Assembly (NCBI RefSeq): GCF_902506345.1
Contig: NZ_LR733413.1
Coordinates: forward strand, 2,664,617-2,728,616
Direction of reading: 5' to 3'
From: Flavobacterium sp. 9R
GTDB taxonomy: Bacteria > Bacteroidota > Bacteroidia > Flavobacteriales > Flavobacteriaceae
Length of the DNA stretch: 64,000 nt
The notes beneath the pieces were generated by a model. That model worked only from the letters and a program-made list of their open reading frames with translations. It was not told where the DNA came from and searched no databases. How positions within the stretch are numbered: the stretch's first letter is position 1; the number at the start of each line of letters is the position of its first letter. Below, one piece after another: positions 50,794 through 63,754 of the stretch. The translations under genes were made by a program, and so were the position numbers.

Positions 50794-51061
50794 AATATTT
50801 CTTATGATTCCACTTTAATACTTGTTGTTTTTGCTTTGGTTTTTCATTTATCGTAACCACCCTTTTTATTGCTAAAATAGAATCCAATTTTTTCTGGTCA
50901 TAAATGACTAACCAAGAATAAGATTTTGATTTTTTATTTTCCCATAGAGAAGTTGCTATTTCTTCTTCTATGATGGGTAAGGCCATCTTTCCTTTTTTTT
51001 GTGAATAAGCTAAAGTAGAAAGTATGGAAAATAGTAGTAAAGAAAGTAATTTTTTATGCAT
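50792..51061 (-). CDS. Small secreted protein, unknown
   Basis: 89 residues. Signal peptide about 1-20 ([20 protein letters not shown]), then a basic mature part with SWLVIYDQKKLDSILAIKRV and a C-terminus rich in Lys and Gln (EKPKQKQQVLKWNHKKY). No Cys, no lipobox. It is at the border between the atp operon and the peptide locus and shares the bidirectional terminator. No family recognised. It may be unrelated to the bacteriocin genes. Confidence 0.6.
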   Translation of the reverse strand: MHKKLLSLLLFSILSTLAYSQKKGKMALPIIEEEIATSLWENKKSKSYSWLVIYDQKKLDSILAIKRVVTINEKPKQKQQVLKWNHKKY

Positions 51062-51209
51062 TGTTAATTTTGGGTTAGTTTGTCTGTACTGTAACTAAAA
51101 TTGTGCCAATGGCTTTTTTTTTAGTTTAAAACCGTAAGAATTAGATTTAAAATTTGGATAATCCATTCGTTTATAATTTTTAGAATAAGAGAAGTCATGT
51201 TTTTTTGGA

Positions 51210-51401
51210 TTATTGTTTCTTCTTTTTGTAAGTATCATAAGTAGCTTTTGCTACTGAAAAGACTAGGATTAAGAGAATATGCTCTAAATCTAAGAGTTTG
51301 TATAGGGTATTTTTTTTATGGTCTCTAAAAATATTTAGTACAATAAAAAAAAAGACAATTAAGAGTATGTTTTGTATCGTTTGAGAGATAAAGTATTTCA
51401 T
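51210..51401 (-). CDS. Small membrane protein, unknown
   Basis: 63 residues with one or two hydrophobic helices (about 8-24, ILLIVFFFIVLNIF, and 38-52, LEHILLILVFSVAKA) and a strongly basic end (TYDTYKKKKQ). This size, charge and place at the end of a peptide transcription unit fit a bacteriocin immunity protein, but no family match is recognised. It lies 99 bp downstream of the membrane-protein gene 51501-51713 on the same strand. Confidence 0.5.
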   Translation of the reverse strand: MKYFISQTIQNILLIVFFFIVLNIFRDHKKNTLYKLLDLEHILLILVFSVAKATYDTYKKKKQ

Positions 51402-51500
51402 TAGATGTATCTTTTAATTTTCAGTAAACTAGTTGTAACTGAAAAGATATACTTTTAAACAATTTTTTAGATTTTAGAATACTGAAGTCTGAATTCATAT

Positions 51501-51713
51501 TTATTGATTGAGTTGTGTCATATCGTTGGTTCTCATTTTTAAATATATCTTTAAAAATACTACGGCAATGAACAATCTATAGCCTCTGTATACCCAAATA
51601 TTTACTGGGAAAGAGAATAATTCGTAAGTGTCTTTGGTTTCAATTAAGGAATAAATGAAGTTTATGGTAAAGGTAATTCCAAAGAAAAAATAGAAGTTTT
51701 TGGGTAGTTTCAT
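51501..51713 (-). CDS. Small membrane protein, paralog A
   Basis: 70 residues with two hydrophobic helices (about 6-22, FYFFFGITFTINFIYS, and 43-58, RLFIAVVFLKIYLKMR). Over about 60 residues it matches the protein encoded at 55578-55781, with NFY-FFGI-FTINFIYS, ETKD-YELFS-PVNIW and YRGYRL shared. Two copies in one locus, each after a peptide gene and on the same strand, suggest an accessory or immunity function for the exported peptides. It starts 3 bp after the stop of the 55-residue peptide gene, so the two are coupled. Confidence 0.68.
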   Translation of the reverse strand: MKLPKNFYFFFGITFTINFIYSLIETKDTYELFSFPVNIWVYRGYRLFIAVVFLKIYLKMRTNDMTQLNQ

Positions 51714-51716
51714 TTG

Positions 51717-51884
51717 TTAGTGATTGTTAGGTAGTGTACCCATTAGTCCAGCCATAAAATTGGCCCAATCAGAAATTATCTCTATTGCCGCTGCAATAAG
51801 CACTAAAAATGCAGTAAAAGTAGGTCCTTTAAGAGTTTTTACTTTTGTGCTATTTAGTTGACCTAAAAATTGTTTTAAATTCAT
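51717..51884 (-). CDS. Short hydrophobic peptide of the second peptide unit
   Basis: 55 residues, read directly from the sequence and too short for a usual ORF cut-off. It starts MNLKQFLGQLNSTKVKTLKG, then a hydrophobic helix (PTFTAFLVLIAAAIEII, about 21-37), SDWANFMAGLMG and LPNNH. It has no double-glycine leader and no Cys. It follows the same operator, promoter and leader as the double-glycine peptide operon, and is coupled to paralog A of the small membrane proteins. It could be a leaderless bacteriocin, a toxin or an accessory peptide. Confidence 0.62.
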   Translation of the reverse strand: MNLKQFLGQLNSTKVKTLKGPTFTAFLVLIAAAIEIISDWANFMAGLMGTLPNNH

Positions 51885-51912
51885 TTTTCATTTTTTTTAA
51901 TCCAGTTTTTTA

Positions 51913-52021
51913 AAAAAAGTTTCTCGAGAACTTTTGTGCTTGGTTTTTGGAGACCATAGCTTTATAAACTCCTTGCTCTGTTTTTTATAGGGTTACACGA
52001 CAGCTGCATCAATCCCTCAGA
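51913..52021 (-). promoter_or_regulatory. Conserved untranslated leader element, copy A
   Basis: The transcript from the promoter at 52077-52108 would carry about 185 nt before the ATG at 51884. Within it, 51949-51997 is identical over 49 bp to 56579-56627 in copy B. Read on the minus strand, the block holds AGGG, then CAGCTGT, then CCCTATAAAAAACAGAGC, then a GGAG...GGTCTCC segment. Possible pairings are AGGG/CCCT and CTGT/ACAG (pseudoknot-like) and GGAG/CTCC. A short terminator-like hairpin follows (stem AAAAGTT/AACTTTT at 51915-51935), then a T run. It looks like a cis-acting attenuator; ligand unknown. Confidence 0.6.
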
Positions 52022-52076
52022 GCAGTAACTATATTTTAATAAATTTTAATAGAAAAAACTTTTGCTTTTCTGAGTT

Positions 52077-52108
52077 CAAAATTAGTCTCACTATTGTAGT
52101 TGTGTAAA
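52077..52108 (-). promoter_or_regulatory. Predicted promoter of the 55-residue peptide unit
   Basis: On the minus strand: TTTA (52105-52108), a 20-bp spacer, then TAATTTTG (52077-52084). The same layout and similar sequence occur at 56728-56759. The operator ends exactly 10 bp upstream of the -33 box in both. Confidence 0.65.
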
Positions 52109-52118
52109 CACTTGTTGT

Positions 52119-52159
52119 CGGAATTCAGGGAATTCGGATAGTAAATTCCTTGAATTCCG
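52119..52159. promoter_or_regulatory. Operator A (degenerate double palindrome)
   Basis: CGGAATTC-AGG-GAATTCGG (52119-52137) and GTAAATTC-CTT-GAATTCCG (52141-52159), with centres 22 bp apart. The outer arms also form a 16-bp inverted repeat with one mismatch. It is a weaker copy of operator B. Confidence 0.7.
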
Positions 52160-52202
52160 AGAACTAAATTTACTTTTTTGAATTTTCATCAAATTTTTAA
52201 GA

Positions 52203-54353
52203 TTAAACCAAACCTTGTTTTTGCCATAAGTCAAAGTATTTGCCTTTTTGTTTTAGTAGTGTATTGTGGTTTCCATTTTCTACCACAGTTCCATTTTCTA
52301 AAACCAAAATAGTATCTGCATTAGCGATAGTACTTAAGCGATGTGCAATTACAATTACTGTTTTTCCTTGTGCTTTAAAATTGTTTATCACTTCTTTTAC
52401 TACTTTTTCTGAATGGGTGTCTAAGGATGAAGTAGCTTCATCCATCAATAGAATTTCAGGATTTTTGTAAAGTGCTCTGGCTATTGCAATACGTTGTTTT
52501 TGGCCACCAGAAAGCATGGCTCCATTTTCTCCTATTTGTGTTTCAAAGCCATTGGGTAATTTCTCTACAAATTCAGTTATGGCTAATTGTTTGGATAAAT
52601 CTAATACACGTTGAATATTAGGAAATGAATCTCCTAAAGCAATATTATCTATAATTGTTCCTGAAAACAAATTGAGTTGTTGAGGTATTACTCCAACTGC
52701 ATTTCGTAAACTTTGGTAGTGAATAAATTGCGCGTCATAATCCCCAATGTAAATTTTACCTTCTTTTATGGGGTATAGATTTTGCAAAAGGGAAATTAAC
52801 GTAGTTTTACCGCTTCCACTTTCGCCAACAATGGCTGTGGTTTCATTTTTTTTGAATATAGCATTAAAATTTTTAAAAACTTCTGTTCTGGAACCATATC
52901 TAAAACTTACGTTTTCAAATTTAATGTCTCCGATATTTTCCTTTTGTAATTCGACTTTGTTCTCAGTTTCTTCTCTTTCTAAATCCATAATTTCGAAAAG
53001 ACGATCAGCAGCAATTAAAGCATTTTGAGCGGTTTTATTCATTCCAATCAAGGAAGCAACTGGAGAGGTGAAGTAGCCGATTAAGGCATAAAACGAAAAC
53101 AATTCACCTGGTGTAATGGCTCTGTCAATTACATAACCAGAACCTATCCACATTAGAATTATAGTAAAGAGAGAAGCCAAAAACTGTGTAGAAGTTCCAG
53201 CAAAAATACTATTCAATCCAGATTTATAAGTAGTGAATAATAGCTTGACAAACTTGTTTTCTGTTTTTAAGTTAGAAAATTCTACTATGCCAAATTCCTT
53301 CACCGTTCTAACATGTGTAACACTTTCGACCAATTGAGTTTGTAATTCGGCCGCATTTTCCATGATGGTTCTTTCTACTTTTTTATTGAATTTATTTAGC
53401 AGAAAATAAATTAGAGCATAAAACGGAATCACTAATAAAATGACTAAAGCCAATTTCCAATAATACGTAAACATCAAAGTAAATGAGAACAGTACAATGA
53501 AAATATTGACGATCATCTCGATAGCTACTTCATTGATAAAAGAACGTATCTTAACAGCATCATTGATTCTTGAGGTTATTTCACCAATTTGCATGGTATC
53601 AAAAAAGCGTTGGGGTAGATGTAATAAATGTTTATAGTATCCTAGGATTAGTTTGGCATCGATTAATTGACCTGTTTTCATCACAAAAATTGTTTTTTTA
53701 GAGCCGATGTAAGCTTGTAAAACAATAATAACAATCATGGAAAAGCTTAACAAATTTAGTAGTTTTCGATTGCCTTCTACCAAAACATAATCTGTTATTT
53801 TTTGAATATAAATTGACATTGCTAATCCTAAAACCGTAAAAAGGATGGCACCCACCAAAGCCTGAATTAAAATGATTTTATGAGGTTGTACCAAATGCCA
53901 AAAGCGTCGTATAGGAGCTATTTTTTCGTTATAGGTTTTAAACTCGTCGTTAGGAGCAAAAAGCACTAATACGCCAGACCATATTTTTTGAAAAGCCTCA
54001 AAAGTATAGGTTTCCATTTTTCCAAAGGCGGGATCCATAACTTCTATTTTGTCTTTGCTTACGGAATAAATCACCACATAATGATGCAATTGTTCTTTGA
54101 CCACTACGTGTGCTATTGAAGGAAGTGGAATTTTATCAATTGCATCTATGCCGCCTTTTACTCCTTTGGCGGTGAAGCCCATTTTATCAGCCGCTTCAAT
54201 GATACCTAGTACGTTGGTACCGCGTTTATCTGTATTGGCGTACTGGCGAATTCGAGCTATTGGTAAATTAACCTTGTAATGATTGCCAATAGAAGCGAGA
54301 CAAGCAGCACCGCAATCTTTAATATCATGTTGTTTTATTTTTATAGAAGCCAT
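52203..54353 (-). CDS. C39 peptidase-containing ABC exporter (bacteriocin processing and export)
   Basis: 716 residues, full length. The N-terminal C39 domain has the catalytic Cys14 in QHDIKDCGAACL with oxyanion Gln8, His91 in LHHYVVIY and Asp107 in VMDPAFG. It cleaves after double-glycine leaders. The six-helix membrane domain covers ~155-430. The nucleotide-binding domain has Walker A GESGSGKTTL (510), LSGGQ (614) and LLMDEATSSLD (636). Such exporters cut off the leader while pumping the peptide out. The two double-glycine peptides at 56145-56505 are its natural substrates, with the HlyD-like adaptor encoded just upstream on the same strand. Confidence 0.95.
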   Translation of the reverse strand: MASIKIKQHDIKDCGAACLASIGNHYKVNLPIARIRQYANTDKRGTNVLGIIEAADKMGFTAKGVKGGIDAIDKIPLPSIAHVVVKEQLHHYVVIYSVSKDKIEVMDPAFGKMETYTFEAFQKIWSGVLVLFAPNDEFKTYNEKIAPIRRFWHLVQPHKIILIQALVGAILFTVLGLAMSIYIQKITDYVLVEGNRKLLNLLSFSMIVIIVLQAYIGSKKTIFVMKTGQLIDAKLILGYYKHLLHLPQRFFDTMQIGEITSRINDAVKIRSFINEVAIEMIVNIFIVLFSFTLMFTYYWKLALVILLVIPFYALIYFLLNKFNKKVERTIMENAAELQTQLVESVTHVRTVKEFGIVEFSNLKTENKFVKLLFTTYKSGLNSIFAGTSTQFLASLFTIILMWIGSGYVIDRAITPGELFSFYALIGYFTSPVASLIGMNKTAQNALIAADRLFEIMDLEREETENKVELQKENIGDIKFENVSFRYGSRTEVFKNFNAIFKKNETTAIVGESGSGKTTLISLLQNLYPIKEGKIYIGDYDAQFIHYQSLRNAVGVIPQQLNLFSGTIIDNIALGDSFPNIQRVLDLSKQLAITEFVEKLPNGFETQIGENGAMLSGGQKQRIAIARALYKNPEILLMDEATSSLDTHSEKVVKEVINNFKAQGKTVIVIAHRLSTIANADTILVLENGTVVENGNHNTLLKQKGKYFDLWQKQGLV

Positions 54354-54430
54354 TATAAGAGTATAGATGATAGAAAAAAGACTTTAGACTTTTCTCAAAA
54401 AGGAAAGTTATTTTATAAAATTTTACTAGT

Positions 54431-55573
54431 TTAAGATCTTGATGCCATTTGTTTAGGGTTGAGCCAATCATCCATCTTGTCAAATAGTAAATCATACAAA
54501 CTGCGTCGGGCAATGGTGTATCTCGTGGTCAACGTCATTCCTTTGGACACTTTGGTTTTGTAACCCGAGTCTAAACGCATTTCTGTGGTATTCATTATAG
54601 AACGTACTTTAAAAAAAGCTTGTTCCCCTTGAATCGTAATGTTACGATCAATATCGATTACTTTTCCTTCCAGTAAACCCCATTGATTGTAATTGAAGGC
54701 ATCTATTTGGAATTTCACCGCTTGATTTTTCTTAATCAATCCTATGTCATTTGGAGAAATAGTACTTTCAACTATCAACCTATCTGTGGCAGAAATGTTA
54801 GCAATAGGTTGTGAAGCATTAATAAAGGACCCTACTTGAAGTCCTGAAAAACTTTCTATAGTACCTGATATAGGCGCTACAACTACATAATTGTTCTCTT
54901 CAATTTTAATTTTCGAAATGCTCCCTTGAATATTCTTCAATCGTTCTTCTAATTCTCTTTTTTGAGTTTCCCAACTGGCTTTTTGTTGGCTTATAAAACT
55001 TCGCAGGGCTTGATTAGCAAAACGCAACTCATACAATTGTTTTTCATATTCTGCTGTGGCAATGATACCTTTGTCGAAAAGTGTTTTGCTACGATTGTAG
55101 TTGATTTGTGCCTGCGAAACTTTGGATTGCAACTCGTCTTTTTGGGACTGAAATTTGTAGAAATCCTCTCTAGCAGCAGCTGTTTTTAGATTGGATGTTT
55201 TACCTCTCAAAACAGCGGTTACATCTTCATGCAGTGCTATAAGCGTGCTTGATAATTCGCTTTGCGTGGTTTTTTCGGTGGTTAAACCGTCTTTTACGAT
55301 TTTGATAAGCGTGTCGCCTTTGTTGACTACCGCATTATTTTTGAGTGCCAACCAACGTATACGACCGCTCACAATGGCGGTAACTGGCACATTATCTGTT
55401 TTAGAACGAATAATACCGCGACTCTGACTGCTAATGTCTATTTTGATAACAGGAAGCAACGCTATAAAAACCAATACAGCCATCACTATTACTAAGTAAA
55501 TAGAAAGGCTTTTGGTTTTGTTTTTGGCGATAAGATTTTCTAAGGTATTGATGGGGTCCGAACTGAAGTTCAT
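54431..55573 (-). CDS. HlyD family periplasmic adaptor for the peptide exporter
   Basis: 380 residues. One N-terminal membrane helix (about 25-45, SIYLVIVMAVLVFIALLPVI), then a biotinyl-lipoyl-like half-motif (VSGRIRWLALKNNAVVNKGD), a long coiled coil (about 100-220) and the second half-motif (VVAPISGTIESFSGLQVGSF, about 228). It ends in a beta-barrel. It links the inner-membrane ABC exporter to an outer-membrane channel (TolC-like; none is in this window). The order small membrane protein, HlyD, ABC on one strand with short gaps supports one operon. Confidence 0.92.
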   Translation of the reverse strand: MNFSSDPINTLENLIAKNKTKSLSIYLVIVMAVLVFIALLPVIKIDISSQSRGIIRSKTDNVPVTAIVSGRIRWLALKNNAVVNKGDTLIKIVKDGLTTEKTTQSELSSTLIALHEDVTAVLRGKTSNLKTAAAREDFYKFQSQKDELQSKVSQAQINYNRSKTLFDKGIIATAEYEKQLYELRFANQALRSFISQQKASWETQKRELEERLKNIQGSISKIKIEENNYVVVAPISGTIESFSGLQVGSFINASQPIANISATDRLIVESTISPNDIGLIKKNQAVKFQIDAFNYNQWGLLEGKVIDIDRNITIQGEQAFFKVRSIMNTTEMRLDSGYKTKVSKGMTLTTRYTIARRSLYDLLFDKMDDWLNPKQMASRS

Positions 55574-55577
55574 GAGT

Positions 55578-55781
55578 TTAATTTTTTGCAGCGCTAGCTC
55601 TCTTACTTAAATATATTTTGATAAATACCATTGCAATCAATAACCGATAACCTCTATAAATCCAAATATTTACTGGGACAGAGAATAATTCATAACTGTC
55701 TTTGGTCTCAAAAAAGGAATAAATAAAGTTGATAGTAAAGGCAATTCCAAAGAATAAATAAAAGTTTTTGGAAAGATTCAT
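55578..55781 (-). CDS. Small membrane protein, paralog B
   Basis: 67 residues, clearly related to the protein at 51501-51713 (shared NFY-FFGI-FTINFIYS, ETKD-YELFS-PVNIW and YRGYRL). Two hydrophobic helices and a basic C-terminus (YLSKRASAAKN). It lies 4 bp upstream of the HlyD-like gene and downstream of the peptide genes. Immunity is one likely role, since bacteriocin immunity proteins are often this small and membrane-bound; an export accessory function is the other. Family unknown to me. Confidence 0.7.
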   Translation of the reverse strand: MNLSKNFYLFFGIAFTINFIYSFFETKDSYELFSVPVNIWIYRGYRLLIAMVFIKIYLSKRASAAKN

Positions 55782-55926
55782 TATTTTGAGTTTAAAGTTT
55801 TCTGATGGTTAGTTTTAAATTAAAAAATAATTCTTACTAAATCGAGAGATGTCGGAAAGTAGAGAGTGGTTTTTATTATGGTTAAAAACGCAATTGTAAA
55901 TTTCACAAAACTAAAATATCAAGTAG

Positions 55927-56055
55927 TTAATTATGGGTAAAATTATAATAAGCCTCACCAATGGCGTGGCCTAAAAAATAGATAAAGAAAAAAAAACCAA
56001 TTATCAGAATAATAGTCATACTAGTTGTATCATTTATGTCTTTGAAAAATTTCAT
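55927..56055 (-). CDS. Leaderless 42-residue membrane peptide sharing a C-terminus with a bacteriocin-like peptide
   Basis: 42 residues, read directly from the sequence: a polar start (MKFFKDINDTTS), a very hydrophobic helix (MTIILIIGFFFFIYFL), then GHAIGEAYYNFTHN. The last part matches the end of the double-glycine peptide upstream (GHAVGEAYYHYTHSK), with 10 of 14 positions identical. It lacks a leader and double glycine. It may be a self-protection decoy, an alternative toxin or a diverged copy of the peptide. Same strand, 89 bp downstream of that peptide. Confidence 0.65.
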   Translation of the reverse strand: MKFFKDINDTTSMTIILIIGFFFFIYFLGHAIGEAYYNFTHN

Positions 56056-56144
56056 AATTTTATTTTTTTAGTTAATTGTGACAATCTGAAATAAACTTTA
56101 ATTTCAGATTGTCATTAAATTTAATATTATTAACAAGCAGAATA

Positions 56145-56312
56145 TTACTTACTATGAGTATAATGGTAATAAGCTTCACCAACTGCATGGCCTGCTCCAT
56201 AAAGCGCTCCAGCGATTGCTATCCCTGCCAAAACAAATTGCAAGAATCCACCTTCAATATTGATTAGTTCTTTATTCTCTAATTCTTCTATATTATAATT
56301 AGTAATTTCCAT
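56145..56312 (-). CDS. Double-glycine leader bacteriocin-like peptide 2
   Basis: 55 residues, too short for a usual ORF cut-off. Leader MEITNYNIEELENKELINIEGG (GG at 21-22, with the acidic/hydrophobic LENKEL...I pattern recognised by C39 peptidases). The 33-residue predicted mature part starts FLQFVLAGIAIAGALYGAG. It has no Cys. GxxxG helix-packing motifs (GALYG, GHAVG) are typical of unmodified two-peptide (class IIb) bacteriocins. It lies 19 bp downstream of peptide 1, so the pair may act together. Target organism unknown. Confidence 0.82.
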   Translation of the reverse strand: MEITNYNIEELENKELINIEGGFLQFVLAGIAIAGALYGAGHAVGEAYYHYTHSK

Positions 56313-56331
56313 AATTGTTTTTGTTTAGTTA

Positions 56332-56505
56332 TTATTTTGCTGCTGAATGATACCCGTTGTAAGCACCCAAAGCAAAGATTCCACCTGCTACTGCAATTAA
56401 AGCTAAGCCGCCCACTGCTGCTGCTGCAAGTCCCCAGTATCCACCCTCAACTTCTTGTACTTCTTGAGCATTCAGCTCTACTAAATTCAAATTATTTAAA
56501 TTCAT
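56332..56505 (-). CDS. Double-glycine leader bacteriocin-like peptide 1
   Basis: 57 residues, first gene of the minus-strand peptide operon. The leader is rich in Leu, Asn and Glu (MNLNNLNLVELNAQEVQEVE) and ends in GG at 21-22. The predicted mature part of 35 residues starts YWGLAAAAVGGLALIAVAGG, continues IFALGAYNGYHSAAK, and is Gly/Ala-rich without Cys. It resembles class IIb bacteriocin-like peptides (lactobin A/cerein 7B type) found in Bacteroidota. The operator, promoter and conserved leader lie upstream. Processing by the C39 exporter in the same operon is expected. Confidence 0.85.
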   Translation of the reverse strand: MNLNNLNLVELNAQEVQEVEGGYWGLAAAAVGGLALIAVAGGIFALGAYNGYHSAAK

Positions 56506-56543
56506 TTTTTTACGTTTTTAAAATTACACATTTCATTTTAATA

Positions 56544-56650
56544 AAAAGTTTCTCGAGAACTTTTAGGCTTGTTTTTTGGGAGACCATAGCTTTATAAACT
56601 CCTTGCTCTGTTTTTTATAGGGTTACAGTACAGCTGAAGTATTCCCTCAT
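56544..56650 (-). promoter_or_regulatory. Conserved untranslated leader element, copy B
   Basis: Equivalent to copy A, within a predicted leader of about 215 nt between the promoter and the ATG at 56505. Segment 56579-56627 is identical to 51949-51997. The terminator-like hairpin is at 56544-56564 (AAAAGTT, loop TCTCGAG, AACTTTT), followed by a T run on the minus strand. A reading frame starting at the shared ATGGTCTCC differs in frame between copies by a 1-bp indel, so conservation is not for a protein. Confidence 0.62.
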
Positions 56651-56727
56651 AGTAGCTACTATAGATTTTGAAAAGCAAAGGGCTTTGCGTGACGTCTTAC
56701 TACAAAACCGTTTCACTTTCCTGAGGT

Positions 56728-56759
56728 CAAAACTAGGGCAGTAATTGTTGTTGTGCAAA
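56728..56759 (-). promoter_or_regulatory. Predicted promoter of the double-glycine peptide operon
   Basis: On the minus strand: TTTG (56756-56759), a 20-bp spacer, then TAGTTTTG (56728-56735), a full match to the Bacteroidota consensus. It drives the peptides, the membrane proteins, HlyD and the ABC exporter. Operator B lies 10 bp upstream of the -33 box, the place for an activator. Confidence 0.72.
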
Positions 56760-56765
56760 CAGTTG

Positions 56766-56814
56766 TTCTCGGAATTCGCGGAATTCCGTGTCGTAATTCC
56801 GCGAATTCCGAGAA
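56766..56814. promoter_or_regulatory. Operator B (perfect double palindrome)
   Basis: Two 19-bp palindromes, CGGAATTC-GCG-GAATTCCG (56770-56788) and CGTAATTC-CGC-GAATTCCG (56792-56810), with centres 22 bp apart. Together they form a perfect 20-bp inverted repeat (56766-56785 with 56795-56814) around a 9-bp spacer. It lies between the divergent peptide operon and the regulator gene, so it can act on both. Confidence 0.82.
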
Positions 56815-56873
56815 TGTTGTTTTTTAATTAATTGGTATAGAGTAATTTAAATAAAAGTTAAAAAACGTAGTTT

Positions 56874-56908
56874 TTTACTACTAATTTAGATACGTTACCC
56901 TATTTTTG
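56874..56908 (+). promoter_or_regulatory. Predicted promoter of the TPR/AraC regulator
   Basis: TTTA (56874-56877), a 23-bp spacer and TATTTTTG (56901-56908). A separate imperfect inverted repeat (AGTTAAAAAAC-GTA-GTTTTTTACT, 56857-56880) overlaps the -33 side and may be a further control site. Confidence 0.5.
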
Positions 56909-56925
56909 CGCAAAACCCTACTATA

Positions 56926-58650
56926 ATGACTAACCTACAATCGATTAAACTAGTGCTTTTGGTACTGTGTCCGTTTTTTTTATGGTCGCAAACGGTTACA
57001 ACAACATCTTCATTGTCCTATAATACAATTGACGATAATTATTTTAAAGACGAGGGAAATGTAAAAAAGCAATTGGCATGGGCTAAAGTCTATCTTGACA
57101 AAGCTAAAAAAGATAATAAGGGAATTCGAAAAGCGAGAGGGTATTACTTGTATGCTATTCTTTATTATGCAGATCAACCGCTCAAAGCCATTCAATATCT
57201 AGATAGTGTTATCAAATACTCCAAAATAGACCCTAATAAATTCTTTCCTGCTGCGGCTTATTGCGAAAAAGCAGGTCTGTTGGTAGACCTACGTAAGTTT
57301 GATGAAGCACTAGTTAATTTTAACTTGGCTGAACAAGTCGCTTTAAAAACTAATATTGATTATTATTATGTGGTTCGGGACTATATTGGGACCACGAAAT
57401 CCGAAGAAATGGGGGAAGTGGAGGAAGCGTTACAACTGTATCACGAAAACTATAAATATTACAAAACTAAAGATTATCGAGGGAATTATTATTCCTATTG
57501 GTTTCAAAACACCATATTTGGATTGGCAGATTGTCATAAGTCTTTGAAGCAAACAGACTCTACTACGTTTTATAATAATTTAGGCTACAAAGAAGCAACG
57601 ATTACTAAAAACAAACGATATCAGCTGATGTTTACTTTGAATGAAGGGGCCAATCAAGTCGATAAAAGAAATTTTAGAGCTGCTTTAGACAGTATCAAAA
57701 AAGCATTACCAGGTTTAATAAAAGTAAAAAATACAGGAAATGTTTTAGCTTCGTATTTTTATTTAGGCAGATCTTATGCAGGTTTAGGGGATAAATTATT
57801 GGCGGTTCAAAATTTTATAAAAGTGGATTCCATGTACCGCATTAGAAAAAAAATTACTCCAGAATTTGTAGGCGGCTATGCCTTTTTGATTGAGTATTAT
57901 AAACAAATCGGGGATAAAGAGAAGCAGTTGAAATATTTAACCACATATATGGAAATCGATAGTGTGTTACAAAAAAATTACAAACACTTGAATAAAGTGT
58001 TGCGCACGGAATACGATACGCCTCATTTGTTTGCTGAAAAAGAAGCTTTAATACAATCTTTACAGAAAAAGCAGTCCGTTTCTTCTGCAGGAATTTTAGT
58101 ATTAGGAATTTTAGTGTTAGGCGTTGGTGGTTTTGGAGGCTATCAGTTTTATTTAAAAAAACAATACCGCAAACGATTTGAAGCGATTATTCATCCCGTT
58201 TCACCCGATGTTCTAGCTTCAAGAACTATAAAAAATGAAGATAGTTCTTTAGAAGAAAATAAACCACAAGAATCATTTGGTATAGCAGCAGAAGTTGTGA
58301 AGCAATTATTAGAGAAGTTAGCTGACTTCGAACGTACTAAAGGATATTTAGAGCATACAATTACTATCCAAAAAGTAGCCTTACAATTGAATACCAATAC
58401 TAAATATTTGTCTAAGGTCATTAATGAACAAAAAGGAAAAACCTTTGTGCAATATATAAACGATTTGAGAATTATGTATGCGGTAGATCAATTACAAGCA
58501 CAATCTATTTTGCAAAATTACACTATGCCTTCCTTGGCGAAGGAGTTTGGATTCAATTCTGCGGAAGCATTTTCTGCAGCTTTTTATAAAAAACACAAGA
58601 TAAAACCTACTTTTTTCATAAAGGAATTAGGAAACGAAAAACAATCATAA
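56926..58650 (+). CDS. TPR-containing AraC-type transcriptional regulator, membrane-anchored
   Basis: 574 residues. A signal-like N-terminus (LVLLVLCPFFLWSQ) suggests a periplasmic sensor part. TPR-like helices cover about 30-365. One membrane helix follows (about 386-409, GILVLGILVLGVGGFGGYQF). The cytoplasmic C-terminus (about 470-570) is an AraC-type double helix-turn-helix (KVALQLNTNTKYLSKVINEQ, then YTMPSLAKEFGFNSAEAFSA, FYKKHKIKPTFF). Bacteroidota use such one-component membrane regulators widely. It lies between operators B and C and probably controls all three operator-bearing units. The site is an inverted repeat, whereas AraC proteins often prefer direct repeats, so this assignment is not certain. 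Confidence 0.85.
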   Translation: MTNLQSIKLVLLVLCPFFLWSQTVTTTSSLSYNTIDDNYFKDEGNVKKQLAWAKVYLDKAKKDNKGIRKARGYYLYAILYYADQPLKAIQYLDSVIKYSKIDPNKFFPAAAYCEKAGLLVDLRKFDEALVNFNLAEQVALKTNIDYYYVVRDYIGTTKSEEMGEVEEALQLYHENYKYYKTKDYRGNYYSYWFQNTIFGLADCHKSLKQTDSTTFYNNLGYKEATITKNKRYQLMFTLNEGANQVDKRNFRAALDSIKKALPGLIKVKNTGNVLASYFYLGRSYAGLGDKLLAVQNFIKVDSMYRIRKKITPEFVGGYAFLIEYYKQIGDKEKQLKYLTTYMEIDSVLQKNYKHLNKVLRTEYDTPHLFAEKEALIQSLQKKQSVSSAGILVLGILVLGVGGFGGYQFYLKKQYRKRFEAIIHPVSPDVLASRTIKNEDSSLEENKPQESFGIAAEVVKQLLEKLADFERTKGYLEHTITIQKVALQLNTNTKYLSKVINEQKGKTFVQYINDLRIMYAVDQLQAQSILQNYTMPSLAKEFGFNSAEAFSAAFYKKHKIKPTFFIKELGNEKQS

Positions 58651-58688
58651 CTATTTTGTTTTGAGTTAATTATGTTTTTTGTGGCTAT

Positions 58689-58707
58689 CGGAATTCCGCG
58701 AATTCCG
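58689..58707. promoter_or_regulatory. Operator C (single palindrome)
   Basis: CGGAATTC-CGC-GAATTCCG, a perfect 8-bp inverted repeat with a 3-bp centre, in the gap between the regulator and the lanthipeptide precursor. It is about 19 bp upstream of the predicted -33 box, roughly one helical turn further than at the other two promoters. Confidence 0.8.
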
Positions 58708-58726
58708 ACAATAACTTTTAATTTTT

Positions 58727-58759
58727 TTTAGCTATTATCAGGGCAACCTTATACTTTTG
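58727..58759 (+). promoter_or_regulatory. Predicted promoter of the lanthipeptide-like operon
   Basis: TTTA (58727-58730), a 21-bp spacer and TACTTTTG (58752-58759). The precursor ATG is at 58791. The weak -33 suggests dependence on an activator at operator C. Confidence 0.55.
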
Positions 58760-58790
58760 GGATTAAAATAGTAACCAAATTTATTATCAC

Positions 58791-59006
58791 ATGAAAACAG
58801 AAAAAAAACAAGCAAAAACGCATCCAAAGTTTAATTTAGAAAAAATGAAAGTAGCCCAATTAGATAATTTGTATCTGATAAATGGCGGTGATAGTTATGG
58901 ATTTGATAAAGGAGATGATCCCGGTACAGTTACAGATAAAGATAAAGGGACTTCATCAAAAGATTGCGGTGGTGGTGGTTCAAACTCTCCAATTAAATAT
59001 CTATAA
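58791..59006 (+). CDS. Class I lanthipeptide-like precursor peptide
   Basis: 71 residues. The leader has HPKFNLEKMKVAQLDNLYLI and GG at 32-33; the FNLE-KMKVAQL box resembles the LanB-binding FNLD motif of class I lanthipeptides and the leaders common in Bacteroidota. The predicted core (34-71) is acidic and Gly/Asp-rich. It has Ser/Thr at 35, 46, 48, 54, 55, 56, 64 and 66 but only one Cys (C59, in SSKDCGGGG), so at most one lanthionine ring can form. The S8 protease and split LanB genes follow directly (4-bp gap). Confidence 0.82.
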   Translation: MKTEKKQAKTHPKFNLEKMKVAQLDNLYLINGGDSYGFDKGDDPGTVTDKDKGTSSKDCGGGGSNSPIKYL

Positions 59007-59010
59007 AAAT

Positions 59011-60708
59011 ATGCGATTTTTTGTTTTTTTATTAATGGTTGTTTTTTTTACTAATTGTAAGGTTAAGCACCTTAATAAGAGAGAACACAAATCTGAATTT
59101 GAAGTAAATAAAATACAGCAGTCTAGTGTAAAACTTTGGCATCAAAAAGATAATCAACAAGATACGATTCCCGGAATTTCGTTAGATAAATGGTATAGTC
59201 TAGATAAAAAAAAGCCAAAAAATAAGAATATAGTGGTTGCGGTTATTGATACTCAAATCGATTTAAAACATGAAGATTTGTTAGGCCAAATCTGGAATAA
59301 TACAAAAGAAGTTGCAAATAATGGTATTGACGATGACAACAATGGCTATACAGATGATAGTAATGGTTGGAACTTTATAGGAACAAAAGGAGGGAGCATC
59401 GTATGGTCTAATTTTGAATATGTTCGTATTGTAAGAGAATATGAAAAGCAATTCAAAAATAGTAAGGAATCAGAAATATTGAATAGAGATTTAAATAATT
59501 ATAAAGAGTTTATTAGGGCATTTAACTTACAAAATCAACAAAAAAAGTTTTATGGGAATTGGTTAAAATCATTAAAATATAAAACTGCGAAGTTTCCAAT
59601 TGCTAAAGACAGCCTTAAAAAGTATTTTCCAAAAGAGAATTACACCTATCAGCAATTGGATAGTATGTATAAAAAACATAAAATTAATGATAAGTCATAC
59701 ATACAGAGAAGAGATGATAATGATAGCGATTTTGGGGCATTAATTGAAGTTTTGATGTCTGCATTAGAGGTAAACCAAAATAGCTTGAGTGATATAAAAA
59801 ACTTGGAAGAAGAGATAGATTCTATTGTAAATAGAAATTTAAATATGTCGTATAACGAGAGGCACTTTTTTGACTTGAATGAACACCTTTTTAAGAAGGG
59901 ATATGGAAATAACAATGTGAGTTCTAATTTATCAGGGATAACCATTAATAATCATAGTACTAGAGTTTCAGGTATAATAGCCGCCAATCGATTTAATGGA
60001 ATTGGCGTTAAAGGAATAACGAGTAATGTTAAGATAATGCCTTTGAGTATTTCACCATCGGGAGATGAACACGATAAGGATATTGCTTTAGCTATACGTT
60101 ATGCAGTAGATAATGGAGCTAAAATTATTAATATGTCATTTGGAAAAGAATTTTCATTGCATAAAAAATGGGTAATAGATGCTTATAAATATGCAGAAAA
60201 GAATGATGTTTTATTGGTACATAGTTCAGGAAATAATAGTTTTAATGTAGATGAAAACCCCTATTATCCAAATGATGTTGATTATGAAAATCCAAATGAA
60301 GTCGTAGAGAATTTTATTAATGTAGGAGCTACTACTGCAAAAGCAGACAGTACGTTTGTAGCCTCTTTTTCAAATTATGGGAAAAAGAATGTAGATTTAT
60401 TTGCACCCGGAGCAAAGATTTATACCACTGCATCGAATAATACTTATGGGTTTGAATCAGGTACTTCATTCTCTGCACCTATGGTTTCTGGTACAGCTGC
60501 TTTGATTTGGTCGTATTATCCAAAACTTACTGCTAAGCAAGTCAAGGAGATTATTCTAGAATCGGGAACGGCGTATGATATTGAGGTTTTGGTCCCTGGT
60601 GGTCAAGGTAAGAAAGCCAAATTTTCTGAACTCTCTAAATCAGGAAAAGTATTAAATGTCTATAACGCGATGCAACTCGCTGAAAAAGTGAGTAAAAAGA
60701 AACGATAA
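59011..60708 (+). CDS. S8 family serine protease lipoprotein (possible leader peptidase)
   Basis: 565 residues from the ATG at 59011. The frame is open to 58882, but that region is the precursor gene in another frame. Lipoprotein signal MRFFVFLLMVVFFTNC (Cys16). Subtilisin triad: Asp80 in VVAVIDTQID, His315 in NNHSTRVSG (Ser and Arg replace the usual Gly and His after it) and Ser486 in SGTSFSAPM; Asn408 is the oxyanion residue. About 235 residues separate Asp and His, far more than usual, forming a helical insertion. In LanP-type systems such proteases remove the leader outside the cell. It is coupled to LanB by a TAATG overlap. Confidence 0.85.
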   Translation: MRFFVFLLMVVFFTNCKVKHLNKREHKSEFEVNKIQQSSVKLWHQKDNQQDTIPGISLDKWYSLDKKKPKNKNIVVAVIDTQIDLKHEDLLGQIWNNTKEVANNGIDDDNNGYTDDSNGWNFIGTKGGSIVWSNFEYVRIVREYEKQFKNSKESEILNRDLNNYKEFIRAFNLQNQQKKFYGNWLKSLKYKTAKFPIAKDSLKKYFPKENYTYQQLDSMYKKHKINDKSYIQRRDDNDSDFGALIEVLMSALEVNQNSLSDIKNLEEEIDSIVNRNLNMSYNERHFFDLNEHLFKKGYGNNNVSSNLSGITINNHSTRVSGIIAANRFNGIGVKGITSNVKIMPLSISPSGDEHDKDIALAIRYAVDNGAKIINMSFGKEFSLHKKWVIDAYKYAEKNDVLLVHSSGNNSFNVDENPYYPNDVDYENPNEVVENFINVGATTAKADSTFVASFSNYGKKNVDLFAPGAKIYTTASNNTYGFESGTSFSAPMVSGTAALIWSYYPKLTAKQVKEIILESGTAYDIEVLVPGGQGKKAKFSELSKSGKVLNVYNAMQLAEKVSKKKR

Positions 60709-62909
60709 TGCACCACTATCAAATTCGTCCTTTTTTTTCACATGTTTTGAGAACTCCTTTGTTACCGCTTTCTTTTTATACTAAAATAATGGAAAAGGAA
60801 GCGGTAATTACCGTGTTTGACCTTCTACAAGATCCCTTAGTATACGAGGCGCTCCAATTGGCTTCTCCTGAACTAGTTGTAATGGTAGAAAAATATTGGG
60901 AAAATCCCCAATCCTTCTCTAATAAAAAGGCAACTGCTTTGGCTTTTAGTGTCTTGAAATATGGTGCTAGGATGGCGTCTCGTAGTACTCCATTTGGGTT
61001 ATTTGCGGGTTGCACTGTTGGAGAAAGAGGCCAAACCACCAATATAGTGATGGACCATAAGGAGCTATTCAAACGTCATACACAATTAGATATGCAATTT
61101 TGGATTGCGTTGTTACAAGAATTGGCGAAGCAAGAAGAAGTCAAGAACACTTTGAGTTACAGACCCAATACAAGCCTTTATGAAGTGGGGTCTTTTTACC
61201 GATATGTGGAGTATCGTTATAAGGGAACCAAAAGGGAACACAGTATTGCAGCACTAAGAAAAACAGATCTTTTAACGCTAGTGTATCAAAAATCAAAACA
61301 AGGAATTACGATTGAAGCCTTAATTGAACTTCTTGTAGATGATGCATCAGAGTGGGAAGATGCTAGATTCTTTGTAAATCAATTGATTGATTTTCAGTTT
61401 TTAGTGAGCGATTTGGACGGTGCTTTAACCACAGAAAAAGAATGGGATAGAATACATACGATACTAGAGCGTGTTCCAAATTTTGAAAAAACAACAACTT
61501 TTTTCCAAAGGCTTAAACACCAAATAGAAAGTTTAGACGATACACTTGTTCCTTCAATTACTACTTATACTACTATAAAAAATGTACTGACGGAAGCCAA
61601 TGTGACTTTTGATGAAAAGTATCTTTTTCAAACAGATTTGACGACTTCGGCTAGTATAAACACAATACATCCAAAAGTATATCGTCAAACGCTCGAAGCT
61701 TTGGCGTTTCTTAATGGCATACAAAAAAAGCATAAAAGTCAAACACTAGAAGGATTCATAAAATCATTTTTACGTCGTTATGAGGGAAAGGAAATGCCGT
61801 TGGCTTTGGTCCTAGATACCGAAATTGGGTTAGGTTATCCAGTATCGAATCAGCGAAATGATACACACGAGCTTTTGGAATCCTTTCATTTTACAAATAA
61901 AAACAAAACTGAAATCCAAACGTGGTCTGCGTATGATCGAATATTGGAGCAAAAATTGCAAACGAGTGTGCAACAAAAGCAAACCTTCTTAGAACTCACA
62001 GAAAAAGATTTTCCTGATTTTGATTGCAATTGGAAAGAGGCGCCTACTACTTTTTCAGTGATGATTGAATTGTTAAAGGAGGATGTAGTGGTTTTGGAAT
62101 CTTCTGGTAATGTGAGTGCAGCGAAGATACTGGGTCGTTTTTGTAATGGAAATGAAGCTATCGCTACTTTGACAACAGAAATTGTGGCTAAGGAACAAGC
62201 GTATGATTCGAATCAAATTAAAGCAGAGGTCGTTCATATTCCAGAATCAAGAACCGGAAATATTTTAAAAAGACCGCCTTTGCGTCTTTATGAAATTCCA
62301 TATTTGTCACATTCAGGTGTAAGCGAAGCGTATCAGATTGGTCTTGATGATTTGATGGTATCGATTCAAAACAATACCGTTATTTTGCGCTCGAAAAAAC
62401 ATAATAAAACAGTAATACCTTGTTTATCGAATGCGCACAACTATGCTAGTAAATCCTTACCCTTGTATCATTTCTTGTGTGATTTGCATGGTCAAAATGA
62501 TAAACCTATTTATAGTTTTGATTGGGGCGTACTCCTTTCTCATTATTCTTATTTTCCTAGGGTCGTTTATAAAAAGGTAATACTTAGTAAAGCTAAATGG
62601 GTAGTTACTGCCGATGAAATTTCCTTTTTAACACAGCAACCTGAAGCTGTTTTTTTTGAGGTATTTACAAAATGGAAAAAGGAAAGACAGTTACCAAGAT
62701 GGGTGAATTGGATACAATTTGATAATACCTTGCTATTAGATTTTGATAAAGAGCTAGGTGCAAAATTATTGATTAATGCGGTAAAAAAACAACCCCAAAT
62801 TATATTGGAAGAGTTTCTGTTTATGGAGAATGCAGCGGTTAGTAATGCAGCAGAAGAAAGGTATACCAATCAGATTATTTTATCCTTTTATAAAGAAAAA
62901 GTAACATGA
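60708..62909 (+). CDS. Lantibiotic dehydratase, glutamylation domain (LanB N-terminal part)
   Basis: 733 residues. Conserved N-terminal LanB stretch ARMASRSTPFGLFAG (about 87-101), RHTQLDMQFW (about 123), and a C-terminal PF04738-like segment (RPPLRLYEIPYLS). It would use glutamyl-tRNA to activate Ser/Thr of the precursor. The elimination domain, normally fused at the C-terminus, is here encoded by the next gene in a different frame. The two overlap by 4 bp (ATGA). The start overlaps the stop of the protease gene (TAATG), so the three are tightly coupled. Confidence 0.88.
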   Translation: MHHYQIRPFFSHVLRTPLLPLSFYTKIMEKEAVITVFDLLQDPLVYEALQLASPELVVMVEKYWENPQSFSNKKATALAFSVLKYGARMASRSTPFGLFAGCTVGERGQTTNIVMDHKELFKRHTQLDMQFWIALLQELAKQEEVKNTLSYRPNTSLYEVGSFYRYVEYRYKGTKREHSIAALRKTDLLTLVYQKSKQGITIEALIELLVDDASEWEDARFFVNQLIDFQFLVSDLDGALTTEKEWDRIHTILERVPNFEKTTTFFQRLKHQIESLDDTLVPSITTYTTIKNVLTEANVTFDEKYLFQTDLTTSASINTIHPKVYRQTLEALAFLNGIQKKHKSQTLEGFIKSFLRRYEGKEMPLALVLDTEIGLGYPVSNQRNDTHELLESFHFTNKNKTEIQTWSAYDRILEQKLQTSVQQKQTFLELTEKDFPDFDCNWKEAPTTFSVMIELLKEDVVVLESSGNVSAAKILGRFCNGNEAIATLTTEIVAKEQAYDSNQIKAEVVHIPESRTGNILKRPPLRLYEIPYLSHSGVSEAYQIGLDDLMVSIQNNTVILRSKKHNKTVIPCLSNAHNYASKSLPLYHFLCDLHGQNDKPIYSFDWGVLLSHYSYFPRVVYKKVILSKAKWVVTADEISFLTQQPEAVFFEVFTKWKKERQLPRWVNWIQFDNTLLLDFDKELGAKLLINAVKKQPQIILEEFLFMENAAVSNAAEERYTNQIILSFYKEKVT

Positions 62910-63754
62910 AAAGGGAGTTTTGCTTAGGCAGTGAATGGTTGTATTATAAAATTTATACTGGTGTACAAACAGCGGACTTACTTTTATTGCAAGAATTTGC
63001 TCCTGTAATTGAACAGTTAAAAGCTCAAAAGGTAATCGAAAAATGGTTTTTTATTCGGTATAACGACCCTGATTCGCATCTTCGTCTTCGCTTTTTGGTG
63101 ACTCAGCCAGAAGCAATAGCTACCATTATAAGTGCCTTCCATCCTGTTTTTGAGGCGTTGATGGTGAGCCATTTAGTTTGGAAAGTACAAACGGATACCT
63201 ATCAACGGGAATTGGAGCGGTACGGAGAAAGTACTATGGTGGATTCGGAGACTTTGTTTGGGTATCATAGTGAGTTGATAGTAGCGTATTTAAAGCACAA
63301 ACCCAATTTTGAGGTAGCAACACAACTGTTGTTTGGGCTGTTTACAATTCATCTTTTTTTAGAAAGTTTTCAGTTGTCCATAGCTGAAAAACACGAACTG
63401 ATGCGCCAGTTGCAATTGAATTTCAAAAAAGAATTTAATGCCGATGCAGTAACAAATAAGGAGCTAGATAAACAATACCGTAACCGTGAAGTAGCAATTA
63501 CAGGCTTGCTATTAGGCAAAACAGACGCGCCATTTGGAGTGCTAACTCCTTTCATAGCAACTAAAATGACAGCAACTGCTTTGTTAAGCTCCAAGATAAA
63601 GATTCAGTTGGAGATTCCTCTTTTTGATTTTTTAAGCAGTCATATCCACATGATGGTTAATCGACAGTTTACGTCACGCCAACGGCAATACGAGCTCCTG
63701 ATATACGACCATTTGTATCGATTTTATAAAACTCAGGAGATGAAAAATGATTAA
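62906..63754 (+). CDS. Thiopeptide-type biosynthesis protein (LanB elimination domain)
   Basis: 282 residues. The N-terminus SEWLYYKIYTGVQTADLLL and FIRYNDPDSHLRLRF (about 48) are signature stretches of the thiopeptide-type/SpaB C-terminal family. DTYQRELERYGE (about 97) and the HMMVNRQF region near the end also fit. It removes glutamate from glutamylated Ser/Thr to make dehydroamino acids. A complete start and its own family-typical N-terminus argue against a frameshifted full-length LanB. No cyclase gene (LanC) follows; a terminator does. Confidence 0.87.
   Translation: MKREFCLGSEWLYYKIYTGVQTADLLLLQEFAPVIEQLKAQKVIEKWFFIRYNDPDSHLRLRFLVTQPEAIATIISAFHPVFEALMVSHLVWKVQTDTYQRELERYGESTMVDSETLFGYHSELIVAYLKHKPNFEVATQLLFGLFTIHLFLESFQLSIAEKHELMRQLQLNFKKEFNADAVTNKELDKQYRNREVAITGLLLGKTDAPFGVLTPFIATKMTATALLSSKIKIQLEIPLFDFLSSHIHMMVNRQFTSRQRQYELLIYDHLYRFYKTQEMKND

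Follow-up and report, generated by a model that had tools for sequence, protein, structure and literature searches.

In a 64,000-nt stretch of the Flavobacterium sp. 9R genome (the window), one palindrome precedes operons for peptides of two chemically different kinds, which raises the question of which protein binds it and whether both systems are switched together. A pattern search of the window for CGGAATTC-N3-GAATTCCG (≤3 mismatches) returned sites starting at positions 52119 (1 mismatch), 52141 (3), 56770 (0), 56792 (1), and 58689 (0), and all operator coordinates given in the first-pass annotation proved right. None of 100 shuffles of the window reached five matches at the same threshold (mean 0.14, maximum 2). 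On the minus strand, a double operator (56770-56810; sites 56770-56788 and 56792-56810, 33 and 55 bp from a TAGTTTTG box) precedes the double-glycine peptide/exporter operon, and a degenerate double operator (52119-52159; sites 52119-52137 and 52141-52159), found by the pattern search and as an inverted repeat, precedes the P55 unit. A single operator from the pattern search (58689-58707, plus strand) precedes the lanthipeptide-like operon. Within each double site, 22 bp, or two helical turns, separate the two palindrome centres, as had been claimed. The 20-bp perfect outer repeat reported for the copies at 56770 and 56792 was read by eye as 20 perfect nt within an inverted repeat at 56766-56814 (23-nt arms, 96% complementary), and a second inverted repeat spans 52114-52164 (21-nt arms, 90% complementary).

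The double-glycine operon (minus strand) starts with peptides a (56332-56505; TIGR03949, 32.6 bits) and b (56145-56312; 25.4 bits), both of the cerein 7B family. They score above the TIGR03949 cut-off (21.5 bits) for class IIb lactobin A/cerein 7B peptides and are putative bacteriocins. They are followed by a 67-aa membrane protein that may be an immunity protein (55578-55781), an HlyD-type membrane fusion protein identified by profile matches (54431-55573), and an ABC exporter (52203-54353) in which the profile search found the C39 peptidase, ABC membrane, and ATPase domains (PF03412, PF00664, PF00005). The P55 unit, also on the minus strand, encodes a 55-aa hydrophobic peptide (P55, an open reading frame at 51717-51884, which matched neither Pfam nor NCBIfam models at E up to 0.1) and a 70-aa membrane protein (51501-51713), 75% identical to the 67-aa protein and likewise a possible immunity protein.

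The lanthipeptide-like operon (plus strand) begins with an open reading frame for a 71-aa precursor peptide with a GG-ending leader (58791-59006), which matched no Pfam or NCBIfam family up to E 0.1. Next come an S8 (subtilase) protease with a lipoprotein-type signal (59011-60708, PF00082; start chosen within a longest reading frame from 58882) and a split dehydratase, consisting of a LanB glutamylation-domain protein (60708-62909, PF04738) and a LanB elimination-domain protein (62906-63754; PF14028, TIGR03891). Both LanB domains expected of a class I lanthipeptide system (PF04738, PF14028) are thus present. The operon was named lanthipeptide-like only, because no match to the LanC cyclase domain (PF05147) was found in this genome at E up to 0.01, in a search with a positive control in 2 of 14 genomes. 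The precursor leader resembles the LxLxKx5L motif and terminal GG described for pinensin-type class I lanthipeptides of Bacteroidetes, which have a split LanB, in the available part of PMC7268733; this genome differs from those systems in having no detected LanC domain.

The first-pass annotation took many unrelated genomic copies of the motif as an argument against a regulon. The whole genome (3.58 Mb) held six sites at ≤1 mismatch, three of them exact, all inside 15.6 kb of the cluster. At ≤3 mismatches the palindrome occurred at 17 places, 10 outside the cluster, and the reversed-pattern control at 7. These counts did not refute a regulon. Three units had been proposed to carry the operator, and there are four in this genome: another double site (G000:C1:2732300-2732340; L046:10301-10341), 3.7 kb past the window end, precedes genes for a 548-aa lipoprotein-like protein and two proteins of 327 and 325 aa. 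None of the 104 homologues of the 548-aa protein has a listed Pfam domain, and the protein matched no PHROG and no PDB fold convincingly (best E 0.027).

The downstream leader sequence is common, in whole or in part, to all three double sites of this genome, which resemble copies of one promoter cassette and are therefore not three independent observations. This shared leader, like the long inverted repeat that a double site forms, would be expected if the repeats only belonged to an RNA hairpin or to a promoter cassette that has been duplicated, with no dedicated binding protein. That reading is very improbable: the sequence around the single site is different, in 53 of 68 cases such a site is found again 25-59 bp behind the regulator match, and the palindromes are upstream of the predicted -7 boxes, so that they would be untranscribed from these promoters. 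Because of this upstream position, a terminator or hairpin function of the double site was also set aside.

The palindrome is very probably the binding site of the regulator encoded at 56926-58650 (plus strand), judged from sequence comparisons. The structure model of this protein comprises a signal-like helix (residues 3-23), TPR-like helices (32-352), a long helix (365-422) with a predicted transmembrane span, and then a lysine/arginine-rich stretch. The C-terminal AraC-type DNA-binding domain (about 455-573) is all-helical in the model and matches HTH_18 (PF12833, 41 bits; cut-off 33.6). Pfam TPR matches were below the cut-off, and fold matches to TPR domains reached E 6.4e-8 at best. The regulator is a predicted membrane-spanning one-component protein, which would have its TPR sensor outside and its AraC-type domain inside. 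An AraC-type domain has two HTH motifs and normally an asymmetric site, and a palindrome is unusual, which counts against binding by this regulator. Its orthologues are 48-72% identical, and the operator was found between regulator and precursor in nine genomes with orthologues (eight at ≤3 mismatches; G011 by eye).

The genus consensus of the palindrome is TCG(A/G)AATTC-N2/3-GAATT(T/C)CGA. Among 299 Flavobacterium genomes, scored for the regulator at E up to 1e-80, a site at ≤1 mismatch occurred in 32 of 34 with the regulator (all except G011 and G225) and in 25 of 265 without it; for the perfect site, the counts were 24 of 34 and 1 of 265. Genome counts were tallied by hand from printed lists, and the Fisher values use those counts and ignore shared ancestry. 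In a scan of the regulator flanks, the best site had ≤2 mismatches for 53 of 68 genes within 300 bp downstream and for 50 of 67 within 350 bp upstream, and in none of 1000 random 300-bp sequences. The 68 regulator genes came from the window and 65 further loci (L086-L151, regulator score >250 bits; L150 dropped, L152 and L153 unused). Likewise, 66 loci held 142 operator sites, with 2 in mononucleotide shuffles; the flank scan and this count are not independent, as the consensus was drawn from loci among those scored. Of the 69 sites that the regulator-bearing genomes contain, at least 6 are distant from the regulator gene (two in G317 and one each in G054, G196, G261, and G304).

The palindrome could instead be the site of another transcription factor, with the adjacent regulator merely linked and acting elsewhere. 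TPR-AraC proteins are numerous in the genus if weaker relatives are included, and the 25 genomes that have the site and no regulator at E up to 1e-80 hold 27 sites, a single one in 23 genomes and a pair in each of the other two. The reversed-pattern control gave far fewer (one match in each of two scans), so chance or other uses exist. Such a factor is nevertheless quite unlikely, because the site tracks the regulator and not the exporter. Among genomes with an exporter orthologue of at least 81% identity, a site at ≤1 mismatch was present in 18 of 19 with the regulator and in 0 of 13 without it; this count omits G137, G218, G222, and G280 (exporters 54-60% identical), and three of its 32 matches are partial. 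In 11 of the 13 regulator-free genomes the stretch upstream of the exporter was read, and 2 of the 11 had 2-mismatch sites. Also against another factor, G004 encodes two regulator paralogues, each with a site behind it. By eye, no more than 11 of the 19 genomes having both genes carry the exporter less than about 15 kb from the regulator, and the exporter control therefore works at the genome level.

The predicted promoter of the double-glycine operon (56728-56759, minus strand) consists of TTTG (56759-56756) and TAGTTTTG (56735-56728), and that of the P55 unit (52077-52108, minus strand) of TTTA (52108-52105) and TAATTTTG (52084-52077); both were read by eye, and in each the second box is 33 bp from the operator. 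In both, 10 bp separate the 19-bp site from the TTTG or TTTA box. The spacing of 10 bp before the -33 box, as first described, thus holds for the double sites; it does not extend to the single site at 58689, where the predicted -7 box TACTTTTG (58752-58759, plus strand) is 43 bp from the 21-bp site, compared with 33 bp. Over the 142 sites, a TAnnTTTG box lay at 33/34 bp (71), 42-44 bp (48), or 54/55 bp (14), with 0-3 per 5-bp bin in the control. The 33/34-bp class comprises double-glycine, P55, and X548 promoters, the 42-44-bp class the lanthipeptide-like precursor, and the two positions differ by one helical turn. Among the 33-bp-class promoters, 38 of 78 had a second site at -21/-22 (≤5 mismatches), against 0 of 52 in the other class; two rows of the former (L141 and L142, plus strand) are precursor promoters, excluded from the double-glycine counts, and one of the latter (L144, minus strand) has the wrong orientation. 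In 12 of 66 loci, a double-glycine unit of the 33-bp class occurred together with a precursor unit of the 43-bp class. The 66 sources behind the box-distance, second-site, 142-site, two-unit, and module counts are L086-L149, the window beyond its first 44 kb, and L046 beyond its first 7 kb.

The regulator might bind the site and repress, or loop between sites, until a signal lifts repression; many repressor systems have tandem palindromes and divergent promoters. We regard this as unlikely, given that 33-44 bp lie between the end of the sites and the -7 box, with no overlap, that the positions about one helical turn apart, with a second site about two turns away, follow the usual activator geometry, and that the DNA-binding domain is of the AraC type. 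The operator geometry fits AraC-family activation from an upstream site.

It is therefore likely that a TPR-transmembrane-AraC one-component activator binds the palindrome and switches both peptide systems. A signal, which might be an exported peptide of the system, would be sensed by the extracytoplasmic TPR domain, and the AraC-type domain in the cytoplasm would bind the palindrome, which is upstream of the core promoter, and recruit RNA polymerase. Tandem sites 22 bp apart would serve the minus-strand promoters (double-glycine peptides and exporter, P55 unit, and 548-aa protein unit), and the precursor/S8/LanB operon would depend on one site displaced by a helical turn. Since the leaders of both peptide types end in GG and only a single C39 exporter was seen in the cluster, co-induction would also supply the exporter, which both systems may share. 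The proposal of a single regulon over two chemically different peptide systems is supported by the co-occurrence of site and regulator across the genus and by the link to both systems; its extent was underestimated, with four units here and other cargo in other species.

AraC/XylS-family activators use tandem sites, with AraC I1 and I2 21 bp apart. The present system resembles them in its AraC-type domain and in having sites immediately upstream of the promoter with a spacing of about two helical turns, whereas each site here is palindromic, the protein is a predicted membrane-spanning one with a TPR sensor, and single-site promoters also occur. As in streptococcal bacteriocin regulons (blp, competence system), bacteriocin units and an exporter would be under one switch. 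The streptococcal regulons rely on cytoplasmic peptide receptors or on pairs of histidine kinase and response regulator, in contrast to the one predicted membrane-spanning one-component protein here, and one output here is a LanB-type peptide. Bacteroidetocins have a double-glycine leader. They are peptide toxins of Bacteroidota related to class IIa bacteriocins, according to the accessible part of PMC6671954; the leader type is alike, but the peptides here match lactobin A/cerein 7B (TIGR03949) instead. Searches of the open-access PMC literature yielded no account of this operator or of a target site for any TPR-transmembrane-AraC protein. Since the site, two promoter positions, and the regulon can be read from about 60 loci, binding, activation, and the inducing signal are directly testable, and the operator is a DNA string for locating silent peptide clusters in the genus. 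It places two unrelated peptide chemistries under one code.

The operator spacer (3 or 2) goes with regulator clades, which fits both co-evolution and plain descent. Regulator residues differing between the spacer groups (e.g. 483) were considered as DNA contacts and rejected, as the differences track clades and do not prove contact.

The transcripts of 28 of the 78 33-bp-class promoters start with repeated RNA modules, predicted to be pseudoknots. In the P55 unit (minus strand), the leader RNA (51935-52018) has a type A (51972-52018) and a type B (51935-51974) module, and a terminator-like hairpin AAAAGTTCTCGAGAAAC followed by a T run lies just before P55 (51912-51935; read by eye, with similar stretches in other leaders). 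In the double-glycine operon (minus strand), type A (56602-56648) is followed by type B (about 56566-56604) and by a terminator-like hairpin AAAAGTTCTCGAGAAACTTTTT before peptide a (56543-56564), the latter two read by eye. No Rfam family reached its gathering score in window positions 51000-59500 and eight loci; the best match was BSnc120 (E 2.9e-5, 36.1 bits; gathering score 114), outside the modules of L075. Single leaders of this genome were no more stable than shuffles (z -0.67 and -0.44), and the G011 leader had z -2.62. An alignment of 35 leaders has a conserved stretch containing AGTAAGACGTTACT, for which RNAalifold predicted no pair. ToxN (PF13958) had no matches in five genomes, in which the controls were equally silent. 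The modules are likewise tandem repeats, each a predicted pseudoknot, when set beside STAXI RNAs (available part of PMC2864571) and type III antitoxin RNA repeats (available part of PMC8860590), and they occur in Flavobacterium. Literature searches gave no matching description of an RNA class of this kind, and the repeat is apparently undescribed so far. Covariance model R1 (family level, strict filters) matched 2 of 299 genomes, both of the genus Flavobacterium. Tentatively, the regulon may be a protein-and-RNA system, in which 1 to 17 tandem modules with predicted H-type pseudoknots in the leaders of double-glycine and related units, also acting in trans from stand-alone arrays (as a regulatory RNA or an RNA antitoxin-like sponge), would couple peptide production to a chromosomal RNA. 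This was rated lower because a slid control showed double changes as often as the proposed pseudoknot structure. Action in trans would follow from stand-alone arrays of the same modules between atpG and an acetyltransferase gene, mostly in regulator-free genomes (13 of 17 seen).

The palindromic operator was re-checked in the window, and the positions given by the first-pass annotation were correct: double sites at 56770-56810 and 52119-52159 on the minus strand and a single site at 58689-58707 on the plus strand. At ≤3 mismatches, the 64-kb window held five matches (mean of shuffled windows 0.14, with 0 of 100 reaching five). Many unrelated copies across the genome had been named as evidence against a regulon; all 16 contigs of the genome (3.58 Mb) held just six sites with ≤1 mismatch, including three exact ones, all inside the cluster (contig NZ_LR733413.1, 2716735-2732340). 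Allowing ≤3 mismatches raised the total to 17, with 10 lying elsewhere in the genome; the reversed-pattern control gave 7. An extra double site, a near-repeat of that at 56770-56810, was found outside the window at 10301-10341 of L046, a stretch reaching beyond the window end. Downstream of it on the minus strand lie X548, a 548-aa putative lipoprotein, and a pair of proteins related to each other, X327 (327 aa) and X325 (325 aa). The three sites proposed for three units thus hold, and the count is revised, since the double site before the X548 unit brings the candidate units of the regulon to four. The operator is real and confined to the cluster in Flavobacterium sp. 9R, and it is conserved beyond this genome.

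The regulator (predicted TPR-transmembrane-AraC protein, 56926-58650, plus strand) was called at E ≤1e-80 in 34 of 299 genomes evenly drawn from the genus. Sites with ≤1 mismatch were present in 32 of these 34 (missing in G011 and G225) vs 25 of the 265 genomes lacking the regulator, and perfect sites in 24 vs one (G205); Fisher tests, ignoring ancestry, gave 4e-25 and 2e-26, respectively. The ≤1-mismatch sites totalled 69 in regulator genomes and 27 in the others. Two observations run against a strict link: the 27 sites exceed the expectation from the reversed-pattern control (one match per search), and the regulator gene is distant from at least 6 of the 69 sites (G054, G196, G261, G304, and two in G317). 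The C39 peptidase-containing ABC exporter (52203-54353, minus strand) is the better control. Its orthologues at ≥81% identity were found in 32 genomes, where a site occurred anywhere in the genome in 18/19 with the regulator and 0/13 without; the exporter was ≤15 kb from the regulator in 11 of the 19 genomes having both. For 11 of the 13 regulator-free genomes, the sequence preceding the exporter gene was inspected (one stretch just 1.9 kb). Ten of these 11 had double-glycine leaders of the type seen in the window, weak RNA-module matches occurred in one, and the best operator match had 4-6 mismatches in nine and 2 mismatches in two. One of these two lay ~4.5 kb from the peptide gene, and the other ~210 bp before it, without the TAGTTTTG box at 33 bp. 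Together, the exporter genomes and these upstream stretches indicate that the operator tracks the regulator, not the cargo.

Regulator orthologues from nine genomes were in the same cluster type, with the palindrome again between regulator and precursor (eight found by search at ≤3 mismatches, that of G011 by eye). The spacer there was 3 in this genome and G029, and 2 in the remaining ones. A locus search by name yielded 68 loci, titled Flavobacterium or Flavobacteriaceae/Flavobacteria except for one MAG labelled Limnohabitans. Sites with ≤2 mismatches were located ≤300 bp downstream of the regulator gene in 53/68 (32 perfect) and ≤350 bp upstream in 50/67; random 300-bp sequences at 28% G+C had none in 1000. 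The 66 sources (1.31 Mb) contained 142 such sites, one of them inside a long ORF, and mononucleotide shuffles 2; the loci behind the 68-gene and 142-site counts were chosen by regulator similarity and include those supplying the consensus. On the regulator tree, rows with the same spacer length grouped together (3 changes for 10 spacer-3 rows). Residues 478, 483, 501, and 531 of the AraC-type domain vary between the spacer groups, K483 being present in 9/10 spacer-3 and 0/49 spacer-2 rows.

Under the 56770-56810 site, the double-glycine operon (minus strand) encodes two lactobin A/cerein 7B-model peptides, small membrane proteins, an HlyD protein, and the exporter. The 52119-52159 site precedes the P55 unit (minus strand; 55-aa peptide and 70-aa protein). 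Two small membrane proteins beside peptide genes (51501-51713 and 55578-55781) are 75% identical and are candidate immunity proteins. On the plus strand, the regulator is followed by the single site, a 71-aa precursor, an S8 protease, and a split LanB. The domain search found no LanC domain in this genome, and the product is therefore named lanthipeptide-like. The five full precursors read have one cysteine or none; given this and the absence of LanC, the product of 58791-63754 may be dehydrated without enzymatic ring closure. The X548 unit occupies L046:6430-10120, past the window end. X548 has homologues in other Bacteroidota, no listed Pfam domain, and no PDB fold match; X327 and X325 share 43% identity.

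TAnnTTTG is the -7 box of Bacteroidota. In the surroundings of the 142 sites, 71 occurrences of it started 33/34 bp past the end of a 21-bp site, 48 at 42-44 bp, and 14 at 54/55 bp, the last group belonging to upstream members of tandem sites (random positions, 0-3 per 5-bp bin). Another 40 occurrences (control 4) peaked at 105-119 bp, in agreement with a box immediately preceding the regulator gene; the regulator's own promoter is therefore some distance from the site. TTTG occurred exactly 9 bp past the site in 73/78 promoters of the 33-bp class and 0/52 of the 43-bp class, where one has 10 bp. A second, weaker site (≤5 mismatches) at -21 or -22 was the best neighbour in 38/78 and 0/52, respectively. 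Steps of ~10 and ~21 bp would keep the same helix face, the layout of an activator acting from upstream. With cargo named by reading the sequences and first genes as presumed targets, the 43-bp class was upstream of the precursor gene, and the 33-bp class upstream of double-glycine peptides (21 rows, 15 loci), HlyD, P55-like, and X548/X327/X325 units. In some species, its putative cargo also included a TonB-type receptor (L095), an outer-membrane barrel protein (L102), and a large RHS-like protein (L111). In 12 of the 66 sources, a double-glycine unit (33-bp class) occurs together with a precursor unit (43-bp class), so two peptide chemistries appear to be under one code.

The regulator model (mean pLDDT 85.4) comprised a signal-like helix (residues 3-23), a TPR superhelix (32-352), a long helix (365-422) with a predicted membrane span, a disordered linker, and the AraC-type domain (455-573); the best fold matches were TPR domains of LGN/Pins. 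From this architecture, we infer an extracytoplasmic sensor joined to a cytoplasmic activator. With its arms ~10 bp apart, the palindrome could conceivably be touched on both sides by a single two-HTH domain, and two domains could fit on tandem sites spaced 21-22 bp. The operator is most probably the binding site of the neighbouring regulator, and geometry and family make an activator role likely. AraC-type switches for bacteriocin operons are already known; what sets this system apart is its predicted membrane-bound TPR receptor, its pairing of two chemistries, a promoter code with two positions, and an RNA in the leader.

Many 33-bp-class leaders hold copies of a 40-50-nt module, two types in alternation (here 51935-52018 and about 56566-56648, minus strand). 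Modules followed 28/78 promoters of the 33-bp class and 0/52 of the 43-bp class. Leader BLAST detected them in 73/299 genomes of the genus, and a covariance model in just 2 of 299 family-level genomes, both Flavobacterium; Rfam returned no family at its gathering score. In 76 aligned distinct modules, the proposed H-type pseudoknot had 90.3% of cells paired (shuffles 87.6, 0/500 as high), and 24.5-57.1% when slid by 1-3 columns. Cells changed on both sides numbered 14 vs 3.8 expected (0/500 as high). Covariation support is modest, because pairs with a double change were 5 vs 2.6 (25/500 as high), sliding the structure by -1 gave 17 cells changed on both sides, and one three-pair helix was nearly invariant. 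STAXI is a known case of tandem pseudoknots (PMC2864571), and type III antitoxins are one of RNA repeats (PMC8860590).

A second conserved stretch, CAGAAAA...AGTAAGACGTTACT...TTTTCT, is located upstream of the modules at 56665-56728 (minus strand), at L046:10196-10259, and in 33 other leaders; a search of it for covarying structure found none. Between modules and peptide genes, at 51912-51935 and 56543-56564 (minus strand), there is a hairpin resembling a terminator, AAAAGTTCTCGAGAAAC, followed by a T run. Similar stretches occur in other leaders, and attenuation is possible.

Leaving aside the window itself, 17 (L069-L085) of the 29 top-scoring BLAST loci were stand-alone arrays of 2-21 modules, such as L073:1324-2385. 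The regulator was absent from the 2-3-kb stretches around them; it was found elsewhere in the genome in 4/17 (G042, G057, G214, and G304), leaving 13 without. The boldest reading is that modules may act in trans. The arrays were flanked by atpG in 15 cases, by an acetyltransferase gene in 14, and by both in 13, and the cluster of Flavobacterium sp. 9R also sits between these two genes.
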